NCBI GenBank assembly: GCA_002205965.3
Contig: NADL03000599.1
Coordinates: 930,001-994,000 of the forward strand
From: Kappaphycus alvarezii
Lineage: Eukaryota; Rhodophyta; Florideophyceae; Gigartinales; Solieriaceae
Length of the DNA: 64,000 nt
Reading direction: 5' to 3'
How positions within the stretch are numbered: position 1 is the first letter of the stretch; each line of letters begins with the position of its first letter. This document shows positions 29,087 to 33,817 of this stretch, piece after piece. The notes beneath the pieces were generated by a model that saw only the letters and a list, made by a program, of their open reading frames with translations, ran no database searches and had not been told where the DNA came from. A program made the position numbers and the translations under genes.

Positions 29087-30142
29087 ATGGCACCGTTAAA
29101 CTTTGTACCAAGCAGTTTCGCATCTATCCACCGTCCTCTTTCCAATTCCTATTCCCCTGCATGCGTCTCTCCCCGAGCAGTGGTGAAAATGTCTACCTCT
29201 TCATTTCGCATCGGTCATGGTTTCGATCTCCACCGCCTCGAGCCCGGTCTTCCTCTTATTCTCGGCGGCGTCACCCTTCCCCACGACCGTGGTTGTGCAG
29301 GTCATTCTGACGGCGATGCTGTATATCATTGCGTCGTCGATGCCATTCTTGGTGCCCTTTCTCTTCCTGACATAGGACAACTCTTTCCTGATACAGATCC
29401 AAAGTTCAAGGGATGTGCCTCTCATGTATTCATGCAAGCCGCATATGAAAAGATGGCCGAACGAGGGTATAAGGTAGGCAATGTGGATGTGACAGTGATA
29501 TTGGAGCGACCAAAAATGTCTCCCCATAAGCGCACCATGAGAGAAAACATTGCCGGCTTGTTGCAGACGCCACTGGAAAATGTTAACTTAAAGGCCAAGA
29601 CGCATGAAAAAGTCGATGCACTGGGGGAGAATCGCGCTGTATCAGTGCATGCGGTGGCAATGCTGGTGCCAATTGAAGGTAGCCAAGAGGTAAAAAGAGG
29701 AGAAGCTGGGACGACAATGCGGAATGATAGTGCCAGAGCTGTGACGGAACGATTGTTGGATGTGGTCGGCGAACGGATAGGAGATATGAGTGGGAGAGGG
29801 GGTAGTGGGTGTGCGGTAGAGAATTTGTACAACACTGTGATGAGTCGAAAGAGTGGAGATGCAGAGAGCTCGTGGACGGCAAAGTTGTTCGCAAAGGGAA
29901 GGGGAAAGATTTGTCAAAAGGTTGGAGAGGAGGCGGTAGAGGTTGTACTCGATGGAAGTGCGGGGAATGCAGAAGGCGTAGTCAAGGAAAGTGCGGATTT
30001 GATATATCACTTGTGCGTGCTGTGGGCGGACATGGGGGTGACGCCAGGGGACGTGTGGGGGAATTGGAACGGAGGGAAGGGACCAGCGGGATTACGGAAA
30101 AGGCGTCAAGGGTCGAAGGAGCGGGGGCGTAGACTAACTTAG
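29087..30142 (+). CDS. IspF-HisE fusion: 2-C-methyl-D-erythritol 2,4-cyclodiphosphate synthase joined to phosphoribosyl-ATP pyrophosphohydrolase
   Basis: One uninterrupted 351-residue frame. Residues 1-35 (MAPLNFVPSSFASI…) are Ser/Pro/Arg-rich with an early Phe, like a primary-plastid transit peptide. Residues 38-194 are IspF, which cyclises CDP-methylerythritol 2-phosphate in the MEP isoprenoid pathway. Visible hallmarks are RIGHGFDLHRL (metal ligands Asp47, His49), HSDGDA (His73), DIGQLFPDTDPKFKG and EKVDALGENR, the last of plant/cyanobacterial type. After a linker of about 50 residues, 244-340 are HisE, which converts phosphoribosyl-ATP to phosphoribosyl-AMP in histidine synthesis. Hallmarks are SSWTAKLFAKG, KICQKVGEEAVEV (Glu281, Glu282, Glu285) and ESADLIYH (Glu301, Asp304). 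The start was chosen for A at -3 and G at +4 and for the transit-like leader. An upstream ATG at 28922 is open in frame but adds no recognisable domain. HisE is usually separate or fused to HisI; joining to IspF is not an arrangement I know. Both pathways are plastidial in plants, so one import event could serve both. Confidence 0.93.
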   Translation: MAPLNFVPSSFASIHRPLSNSYSPACVSPRAVVKMSTSSFRIGHGFDLHRLEPGLPLILGGVTLPHDRGCAGHSDGDAVYHCVVDAILGALSLPDIGQLFPDTDPKFKGCASHVFMQAAYEKMAERGYKVGNVDVTVILERPKMSPHKRTMRENIAGLLQTPLENVNLKAKTHEKVDALGENRAVSVHAVAMLVPIEGSQEVKRGEAGTTMRNDSARAVTERLLDVVGERIGDMSGRGGSGCAVENLYNTVMSRKSGDAESSWTAKLFAKGRGKICQKVGEEAVEVVLDGSAGNAEGVVKESADLIYHLCVLWADMGVTPGDVWGNWNGGKGPAGLRKRRQGSKERGRRLT

Positions 30143-30390: not shown

Positions 30391-31302
30391 TCAGCTTCTC
30401 GTTTGCATAGCATTCGCTTCCGCATCTCGTGGAAATAATGACGTGGTTTCATCCAGCATGTGCGGCTGCGAAGCGATGTCGGAGGTAGATTGTGCGGTGA
30501 GAGGGGCGGTTTCCAGGACATCAACCGTCTCTTGCCGACTTTGTATCGGCGGGGAATTTAAGCATGTTGTATGTTGATGGTCATCGCATGAAGTGTGACT
30601 TAGCACGTCCTCTTGGTGGTGTTCGACCTCGTCGTCAGCTTGGGAACGTGGACGCTTGGGCGTGATGGATTGGAATGTGCTTCGACAAACGGGGCAGGAT
30701 AGATGAGGGTCGCGCATAAGCCATTGCACGAGACACGCGGTGTGAAGCGGATGCCGGCAGACGCCCTCACTGACGGGATGATCGCTTAGAGGTTCGAGAC
30801 AGATGGGACAAGTGACGGAGATGTGTGTCTTCATTGGGGAATAGGAATGAACTCGGATTGTCTTGCCTGCCCTTCGGCGCGGTGGGCTTATTTCAGAGAG
30901 CGGGGTGGGGTTTTGGAGAGAACGAAGGGAGAGTAGGTCGAGACGACGAGTGCGAAAGATTCCAAATCCAATACAGGCGAATATGACGAATATTATGGAG
31001 ACGACATAGACCGCGGTTAGCTCGGGTCTAGAATCGGACTGGCGAAGAGTGAACGGAAGTGCGAGGGGAAAGAAGACGGGGGGGGTGACATGGTGATGCT
31101 GGCGACATTCGGGTTGGTGGCGGAAGCAGGTTGAAGAGCAATGGTGGATTGGGGTCCGCGAGATGGTGGTGATGGAGGAGAGTGGGTGGAGTGGAAGCGA
31201 TGCCTTGCATAAGCAGAATAAAACAAATTTAAAAAAACAAGAAATTTCGCTTGTATGAGTGCACGCGGTCAAAATTGATGGTTGAAAGAGGTACGTTGAC
31301 AT
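30391..31302 (-). CDS. Membrane-anchored RING-H2 finger protein, probable E3 ubiquitin ligase
   Basis: 303 residues from the first ATG in the frame; the frame stays open further upstream without an ATG. A hydrophobic stretch near 23-32 may be a signal or first membrane segment. A clear transmembrane helix lies at about 95-116 (AVYVVSIIFVIFACIGFGIF), followed by basic residues. The RING-H2 finger is complete: Cys165, Cys168, Cys182, His184, His187, Cys190, Cys203, Cys206 (C3H2C3 spacing). RING-H2 domains recruit E2 enzymes, and single-span RING-H2 proteins of the ATL kind act at membranes. The roughly 100-residue C-terminal tail is polar, His/Gln/Ser/Thr-rich and probably disordered. The gene converges with IspF-HisE, with 248 nt between the stop codons. 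Substrate and exact membrane are unknown. The start is uncertain because of the weak ATG context. Confidence 0.82.
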   Translation of the reverse strand: MSTYLFQPSILTACTHTSEISCFFKFVLFCLCKASLPLHPLSSITTISRTPIHHCSSTCFRHQPECRQHHHVTPPVFFPLALPFTLRQSDSRPELTAVYVVSIIFVIFACIGFGIFRTRRLDLLSLRSLQNPTPLSEISPPRRRAGKTIRVHSYSPMKTHISVTCPICLEPLSDHPVSEGVCRHPLHTACLVQWLMRDPHLSCPVCRSTFQSITPKRPRSQADDEVEHHQEDVLSHTSCDDHQHTTCLNSPPIQSRQETVDVLETAPLTAQSTSDIASQPHMLDETTSLFPRDAEANAMQTRS

Positions 31303-31542
31303 TCGGTCCAGAGTGTGGAAATACTGTAGACGGTTTCCCTTGTTCCACTCCAATCGTGCACAGGAGCAATGCTCTGCAACCAAATTAGCTCCATTATTTG
31401 TTACCGCCAATACCGTTACGTTGCTAATATTCTACAAGATTTTGTTACATCGAAACGTTTGTTCCTTCGCTCAGGATTGAATTGAGATATTCTTAACAAG
31501 CCCAGGGGTAATTGCCTGCTGCGCGTTGTACCATTGCTGCAA

Positions 31543-32350: not shown

Positions 32351-33817
32351 TCACTCTGACTGAGTTTCTTGATCAGACGGATAATATGATGAGGTACGAG
32401 CCCTTAACTGGACCTCCATTCGCCTGCGCCTCTTATTCCGATATTTCGCTTGAGCCCTTGCCCGCTTCTGAGTCGTCTCCTCCCCAATCATGTTAAGACG
32501 ATTTCGAACACGAACATAGAAAATCTGATCACTTGCACGCAGTGGATTCCACCCTACATGCATATTTGTCAAACCTAAACAACAGCGAAAAATAGCACCG
32601 TATAGCTTCTCATTCCAACGATACTTCTGGGCTAAAACACCCCATAGACTGCACATGCGCCCAAAGTAATTTTCAACAATAATTCTATCGCTAGCAACCA
32701 TCTTGTTGAACATGTGTTCGTCACGAGTAAGCTCTCGGCTGCGGGGCTTTTTCTTCGGGTGAACAACCCTCGTAAACTCCATTGCACCCTGATAGCCTTT
32801 GTCAGTCAGCACTGCCCAATGAATTTCATAGTTCGAGGCTCCGATCCCATCATCAGGCTCAGCAGCCTGATTCTCCGTTTTCTCAAGCTGCTCTTCGTGC
32901 CACTCTAAATTCTTATGAAAAATATCAATATCGGAGACAGAGCCGGGATACGGAAGGGAGCATCCAATAGCGACGCCAGATGGTAAGACTGAAACCTCAA
33001 CCTTTAGCCCGTACAATTTGTGCTTCCCTGAGAAGTACCTCTTTGCCTCCTGTAGGTTACCGCTAGGCCGGTTACTGTTCTGGAAAGTAACATCGGTAGC
33101 ATAACGAGCGTACGGAAAATTTTTGAACTGCCTATTACTCCGACGCAACTTCTCGAACGTCCAGTGCTTGGATAAGCCACTGACTCCATAGCGATAGACC
33201 TCATGCGACAGTAAAAATATGAACGACGAAACCGTCCTCTCAAATGTCGGGCCACTTATACCAAATGCCTTTCCGACAAAGTCCCACGCCCCGCCATGTT
33301 TCAACAACGTCATGGTCATGAATAAAACATCTTTTCCCGAGAACTGAGACCGCCGCCCTCTTCCAACGTTGTAGTTTGCGGAAATGAAATTCGTAAAAGT
33401 GCTCCAGATTGAGTGAAACTCCTGGGCGGTGAAGTTAGTCATCTCGGTAATATTCTGGGAGCCACCGGCATTGTAGAAAGATTCGAAGTATGGAGCGTCA
33501 CAGTCGTTTTCGTCATCTGTATCTGGGTTGTCTTTCACGCTGTTGTAGCACTCAAGCTCAGCTCTTCTTTCCTCTGCTGCTTCAGCTAGGAGGGCAAGCC
33601 CCCGGTTGCCTGCGAGCTGGTCAATGCGGGTTGGCTTGTGTTCATTTTTCGTTGTTGAGTATTGAGGCTGTTGCAGCAACGGTTTGTTTCCAAGGCAGGT
33701 AGTATTCTTGCAGACTACCAGCCTTTGTACTCCTTTAATTGATCTGAACCTTGAATTTTTGCTCTGGTTTCCCCGGTCTTCGCATGAGATGGCGTAGAGT
33801 CCTCCGATTTCGTATTA
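32351..33817 (-). CDS. PIF/Harbinger-type DDE transposase, apparently intact catalytic core
   Basis: An open minus-strand frame of about 488 codons runs from 33817 to the stop at 32351. The recognisable protein covers the last 442. A helix-turn-helix-like block lies at about 112-150 (QFSGKDVLFMTM…TFERTV). The DDE superfamily endonuclease catalytic residues are probably Asp196 (YATDVTFQ), Asp293 (LTDKGYQG) and Glu336 (RIIVENYFGRM). A basic tail follows at 404-422. It would cut and paste the element that encodes it. No ATG is seen upstream in the frame before the stop near 33817, so the start probably lies in an upstream exon or has been lost. An AT-hook/Myb-like frame at 34752-35278 on the same strand is the expected partner. 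A dead relative lies at 24.98-25.97 kb. Confidence 0.85.

Follow-up and report, generated by a model that had tools for sequence, protein, structure and literature searches.

An IspF-HisE fusion gene in Kappaphycus alvarezii and its spread among red algae

A gene of the red alga Kappaphycus alvarezii joins two enzymes of unrelated pathways, IspF and HisE, in one reading frame, and the same fusion recurs in other red algae. The gene lies in the 64,000-nucleotide stretch of DNA that was analysed here (the window), where a 351-residue open frame on the forward strand, at 29087-30142, holds an IspF domain followed by a HisE domain. Our preferred reading, to which we assign a probability of roughly 0.8 from sequence comparison, is that the product is a plastid enzyme with two activities, made by joining a bacterial-type HisE to a plastid-targeted IspF, and that this fusion had been fixed by the time the living red algae split. 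The IspF half would act in the MEP pathway, converting CDP-ME-2-phosphate into ME-cyclodiphosphate and CMP, while the HisE half would act in the histidine pathway, converting phosphoribosyl-ATP into phosphoribosyl-AMP and PPi; HisI is a separate protein in this alga. An alphaproteobacterial-type stand-alone HisE would have become attached in frame behind an IspF that was already plastid-targeted, so that one leader would import both enzymes. In the simplest history, a leaderless HisE gained plastid import by landing behind IspF. Plastid import and the activity of both halves are our inferences, as are the donor and the idea that import hitch-hiking kept the fusion in place. The features of the gene are:

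29087-30132, forward strand: IspF-HisE fusion gene without visible introns; past a one-base frame loss, its conserved frame closes with the TAG at 30130-30132
29087-29200, forward strand: N-terminal leader, residues 1-38, a putative plastid transit peptide, judged from the composition of the relatives' leaders
29204-29665, forward strand: IspF (2-C-methyl-D-erythritol 2,4-cyclodiphosphate synthase) domain, residues 40-193 (PF02542, TIGR00151, 2pmp)
29666-29818, forward strand: linker, residues 194-244, mostly of low confidence in the structure model of the relative P0002
29819-30058, forward strand: HisE (phosphoribosyl-ATP pyrophosphohydrolase) domain, residues 245-324, with EExxE and ExxD (PF01503, TIGR03188)
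30057-30061, forward strand: G-run, one base shorter in the window copy than in the copy on contig C665 according to the alignment of the copies; the frame is lost from here onward
30062-30132, forward strand: conserved HisE C-terminal tail in another frame (open reading frame 29809-30132), with the tail positions R, G, E, K and R

Both domains scored well above the curated cut-offs. The IspF half matched PF02542 (YgbB; E 7e-59, 199.1 bits, cut-off 26.7) and TIGR00151 (196.1 bits, cut-off 116.45), and the HisE half matched PF01503 (PRA-PH; E 1.8e-16, 60.8 bits, cut-off 21.3) and the equivalog model TIGR03188 (E 1.1e-26, 92.9 bits, cut-off 42.7). No other Pfam family matched in the Pfam search; PF01502 (HisI) was absent from the fusion protein, and no IspD domain preceded IspF. 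The IspDF model NF006899 matched at 185.8 bits, which is under its cut-off of 417, and over profile positions 222-380 only. The window copy carries the IspF metal ligands Asp-x-His and His as well as KAKTxE, and it carries the EExxE and ExxD of the acidic cluster of HisE. The earlier note, made from the letters of this DNA, had claimed a single-frame fusion of IspF and HisE. The fusion is real, with both domains over their cut-offs and both sets of active-site residues kept.

We scored 22 positions across 79 fusion relatives (see below). The first Asp of IspF was kept in 78 of these and the other eight IspF positions in all 79, as were the EExxE and ExxD of HisE and five positions of the HisE tail (R, G, E, K, R). 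One non-catalytic Lys (position 266 in P0002) was Lys in 62 of the 79 relatives.

The 351-residue frame described in the earlier note is correct up to residue 324 (W), but its last 27 residues (325-351) are out of frame and do not form the conserved end of the gene. Aligned with a second copy of the fusion, on contig C665, the window copy lacks one base of the G-run at about 30057-30061, and its reading departs from the relatives after DVW. The conserved tail, ELERREGTSGITEKASR..., is present in the window DNA in another frame, with a stop at 30130-30132; the tail of the relatives is of the type ELERREGTSGI.EKASR. The C665 copy is 98% identical to the window copy, intact, and ends in the expected tail; it encodes 348 residues, the same length as P0002. 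The HisE tail (R..SG..EKxxR), common to red-algal and bacterial HisE, is thus out of frame in the window copy and intact in C665. Because the five scored tail positions are kept in all 79 relatives, HisE would probably suffer if the tail were really lost.

Upstream of the break, 324 codons were compared between the two copies, with 19 synonymous and 5 non-synonymous differences (dS 0.088, dN 0.007). The dN/dS between them is low in both halves (0.0028/0.1036 for IspF and 0.0053/0.1244 for HisE), and by this measure both halves are under constraint between the copies. Contigs C595 and C665 are collinear at 86-92% identity across some 27 kb of the 28 kb compared on C665, which points to divergent haplotypes or duplicated subgenomes. 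Such an identity represents a high divergence for alleles, and the contigs are possibly divergent haplotypes or hybrid subgenomes. Frame breaks also occurred in a second HisI copy and in a ribosomal-protein neighbour on C7 (where the neighbour was identified by eye); HisD on C675 is in pieces whose overlap suggests frame breaks, not introns. Since other second copies in the assembly are also frame-broken, the one-base loss in the window may be either an indel error or a very recent loss. The extra HisI and HisD copies on C7 (L092), C675 (L097, L099, L100, L102) and C578 (L098) have frame breaks or internal stops. HisI and HisD copies on C462 and C497 are open; the broken ones would be haplotype errors or decaying duplicates.

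Downstream of the fusion in the window lies a convergent gene for a RING-finger protein (30394-31410, reverse strand; PF13639), and a similar frame adjoins the C665 copy. Further on, at 32354-33679 on the reverse strand, there is a 442-residue open frame resembling a DDE_Tnp_4 transposase (PF13359, E 4e-22).

The earlier note had proposed looking in other red algae for proteins with both PF02542 and PF01503, and such proteins were found. We searched about 5.8 billion proteins, of which only the 7995 candidates that shared most words were scored. Among the 120 matches listed, 79 clusters contained both domains (P0002-P0080) and 41 contained IspF alone; the latter ranked after the fusions and included many land plants, in keeping with a plastid-like IspF half. 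Twelve of the 79 fusion clusters bear an organism name, and all 12 are red algae: Agarophyton, Gracilaria, Chondrus, Purpureofilum, Porphyridium, Cyanidiococcus, Rhodosorus, two Pyropia and three Galdieria (one of these assigned from the label 'Galph1'). According to the NCBI taxonomy, Cyanidiococcus belongs to the Cyanidiales, and Purpureofilum and Rhodosorus to the Stylonematophyceae, all within Rhodophyta; we place the remaining named carriers in Rhodophyta as well. The Cyanidiales are the deepest branch of the red algae. From the sequences, the best reading is a fusion that became fixed ahead of the divergence of the living red algae. Among the fusions from the best-word candidates scored, 67 of 79 are without an organism name, and the 12 named rows include no alga with a red-derived plastid; one scan of viral contigs yielded no fusion.

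Two of the relatives, P0002 and P0065, have complete open reading frames under transcript-type labels, which supports a single message. An annotation or assembly error that joined two neighbouring genes would fit the frame loss in the last part of the window copy. However, its probability is close to nil: there is no stop between the domains, and the fusion also occurs on C665 and in 79 database clusters, of which two bear labels of the transcript type. The second copy and the 79 clusters with both domains exclude chance, and on their account we rejected an assembly artefact.

In the 336-Mb assembly, IspF was found at two places, both of them this fusion, and HisE at three places, namely the two fusion copies and one locus on contig C541 (L005). 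The HisE on C541 adjoins matches to HisI and HisD in a dense, bacterial-looking cluster of his genes, in which HisF and HisH were named by eye. We read this cluster as contamination and set its HisIE aside as an algal enzyme; the cluster probably derives from a contaminant or an associated bacterium. Elsewhere, HisI stands alone on C462, in a 258-residue frame with PF01502 at 157-230 and no HisE, and HisD is present in the assembly. Whether a separate HisE or HisIE exists in this genome had been raised in the earlier note. Intron-blind searches, exon by exon, which a heavily intron-split second HisE could escape, detected no algal one, and the sole other PRA-PH place was the bacterial-looking C541. 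On this sequence survey, the fusion seems to be the genome's only source of IspF and of algal HisE.

These results also bear on the function of the second half. HisE is one member of a broader superfamily of all-alpha nucleotide pyrophosphatases, and the HisE-like half might accordingly be another, related enzyme of that superfamily, or else play a regulatory part in the service of IspF. We regard this as very improbable: the half exceeds the equivalog cut-off of TIGR03188, all 79 relatives have the EExxE, ExxD and tail residues, and the searches brought up no further algal HisE, yet HisI and HisD are present.

The relatives of the separate HisI were of one type. All 120 matches listed contained PF01502 only, with red algae and bacteria together; the named red-algal matches were Gracilariopsis, Rhodosorus and Compsopogon, and the rest were bacterial or without a name. 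Several red HisI bear the UniRef title 'bifunctional protein HisIE'; the named ones shown are 162-201 residues long and have PF01502 only. The transcriptome that contains P0002 also has a HisI (P0173). HisI of Galdieria and Cyanidiococcus was not among the named matches listed.

The earlier note had called the leader transit-like, and its composition in the relatives agrees with this. Pooled leaders contained 20% S/T and 3% D/E, compared with 7% and 13% in the IspF part. Leaders of at least 30 residues were present in 46 of the 79 relatives; 25 had leaders of fewer than 10 residues, which may be truncated gene models or real. The linker varied from 26 to 92 residues (median 57; 80 rows, including the window frame), without conserved columns in the alignment of the fusion relatives. 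An AlphaFold2 model of P0002 gave two confident domains, whereas the leader and the linker had low confidence. With a pTM of 0.54, the model gives no defined packing of the IspF and HisE halves. A Foldseek search returned only IspF structures among the best 50 matches listed; the HisE fold is therefore supported by sequence and by model confidence, with no structural match to add.

The variable linker is relevant to why the fusion has persisted. There is about an even chance that the two domains work independently and that the fusion is kept for convenience only, simply since HisE lacks its own leader and promoter, which is compatible with a bifunctional plastid enzyme. The range of linker lengths, the lack of conserved linker columns and the absence of a defined packing in the predicted structure all fit this explanation, as does an analogy with Arabidopsis HISN2, whose domains are functionally independent when expressed apart according to passages of PMC8102479. 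Set against it is the retention of the fusion in 12 of the 12 named red algae, although fission needs just a new start and a leader.

Alternatively, the fusion may couple the two enzymes. IspF is a trimer, and HisE dimers could bridge IspF trimers into a defined assembly, with cross-regulation of isoprenoid and histidine synthesis. Linked trimers and dimers can close into larger symmetric bodies, and passages of PMC8102479 describe PRA-PH as dimeric. The model of P0002 predicts a helix within the linker (residues 214-235). In the corresponding region (about 195-243 of P0002), the helix-like pattern S/T..LL....R[VI] occurred in 41 of 79 linkers, compared with a mean of 4.9 in shuffled ones; the pattern was composed after seeing the sequences, and serves as a lead. 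It was missing in the other 38, including P0002 itself and the rows of Galdieria, Cyanidiococcus and Porphyridium that were shown, which argues against coupling, and we consider such an assembly unlikely. Still less likely is its extension to the whole phylum, a higher-order IspF-HisE body in which the MEP or nucleotide state would set the histidine flux, through a link that predates the divergence of the living reds.

Cleavage of the linker after import, releasing free IspF and HisE, is similarly doubtful. The stretch of about residues 201-240 has block means of model confidence of only 49-71 and is probably exposed, but the linker has no conserved columns and hence shows no sign of a conserved cleavage site.

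The HisE half of the proposed bifunctional enzyme points to an alphaproteobacterial-type source, which may have been the mitochondrial ancestor or a later transfer. Among the 120 listed matches of the HisE half, 71 were fusions and 49 were others without IspF, and the organism-named ones among the latter were Roseomonas and its kin. When GTDB genomes were searched with the red HisE alignment, using motifs drawn from red sequences, which favours look-alikes, we obtained at least 587 confirmed HisE places. The best 80 of these were titled alphaproteobacterial, four of them only as Proteobacteria, and Roseospira marina ranked first among the matches listed (69% identity). We rejected an ispF gene next to hisE in alphaproteobacteria as the source of the fusion, as none of the 80 loci had ispF in flanks of up to 3 kb on each side.

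In a HisE tree with 23 red rows, 30 alphaproteobacterial rows and 3 others (101 columns; close matches sampled, no plant or cyanobacterial row), the reds nested among Rhodospirillales-like sequences. Of the 23 reds, 21 formed one group (support 98/94), with two Pyropia rows elsewhere, and a single red clade was neither demonstrated nor rejected (p-AU 0.303). A larger quick tree with 80 red rows again placed Pyropia apart, with weak support. The Pyropia fusions (P0074, P0077) have an odd composition, and their HisE halves stand apart from the other reds in the trees. We dropped the use of plant HISN2 (7bgm) as a distant outgroup by bit score: it scored 49 bits against the red HisE profile, within the range of bacterial HisE chains (32-92 bits), and hence bit scores alone do not exclude a plant source. 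Passages of PMC8102479 place the plant HISN2 enzymes near Deltaproteobacteria. Other HisE fusions or joined frames were seen as well (P0123, P0170, P0127, P0129, P0146), combining HIT with HisE or HisE with PF00977 (HisA/HisF).

Most enzyme fusions combine consecutive steps of a single pathway, whereas the pathways of IspF and HisE share no intermediate. The fusion is unusual because the pathways are unrelated and because it spans widely separated red algae; it has outlasted the diversification of the group. One gene would have to sustain two essential functions of the plastid if both halves are active. Red algae evidently took apart, or never had, the HisI-HisE fusion reported for other eukaryotes, and the IspF-HisE fusion may serve as a shared-derived marker for Rhodophyta, to be looked for in algae with red-derived plastids. 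It also offers a clean test case of whether fusions are kept by selection on coupling or by the lack of an import signal in one half. The public fusion entries hold both Pfam domains, yet the visible functional names (Chondrus, Porphyridium, Gracilaria, Galdieria sulphuraria, JGI) say IspF only, so that automatic pathway reconstruction may call HisE missing in red algae.

The earlier note knew of no IspF-HisE protein. The fusion turned out to be widespread in red algae, but we found no description of it in the titles and passages brought up by topical full-text searches, which covered few subscription journals. The papers that seemed to combine all the relevant terms were false matches, 'hise' being part of 'HiSeq'. 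Plants and fungi fuse HisI to HisE. According to passages of a 2007 study (PMC1963479), HisIE was bifunctional in all eukaryotes in which it was found; the words ispF, isoprenoid, red alga and Rhodophyta are absent from this study. Passages of a diatom review (PMC3901274) describe a bifunctional HisIE in two diatoms, and those of an oomycete fusion paper list a HisE-HisI enzyme, without the word cyclodiphosphate. A paper on horizontal gene transfer in Cyanidiales contained no ispF, isoprenoid, cyclodiphosphate or HisE, and a paper on chlamydial genes no ispF, cyclodiphosphate or histidine.

Several known systems resemble parts of the red-algal protein. The closest solved structure to the IspF half is plastid IspF of Arabidopsis (PDB 2pmp; E 2e-70, 64% identity), a 160-residue chain without a HisE domain. 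For the HisE half, the closest named matches listed are stand-alone alphaproteobacterial enzymes (Roseospira, Telmatospirillum and others; up to 69% identity), which were not seen with IspF at the 80 loci. In plant HISN2 and bacterial HisIE, HisE (PRA-PH) is likewise C-terminal to another enzyme, but there it is fused to HisI, which catalyses the following step of that pathway, and plant HISN2 is not especially close to red HisE. Bacterial IspDF (PDB 1w55) likewise combines IspF with a second enzyme in one chain; however, IspD, the partner, precedes IspF in the chain and is itself an MEP-pathway enzyme. Fungal HIS4 and other histidine-pathway fusions, as described in passages of PMC1963479, are metabolic-enzyme fusions that include HisE, as here, but the partners in HIS4 are all histidine enzymes. 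Hence, what is new in the red algae is the combination of enzymes, within the known kind of metabolic fusions.
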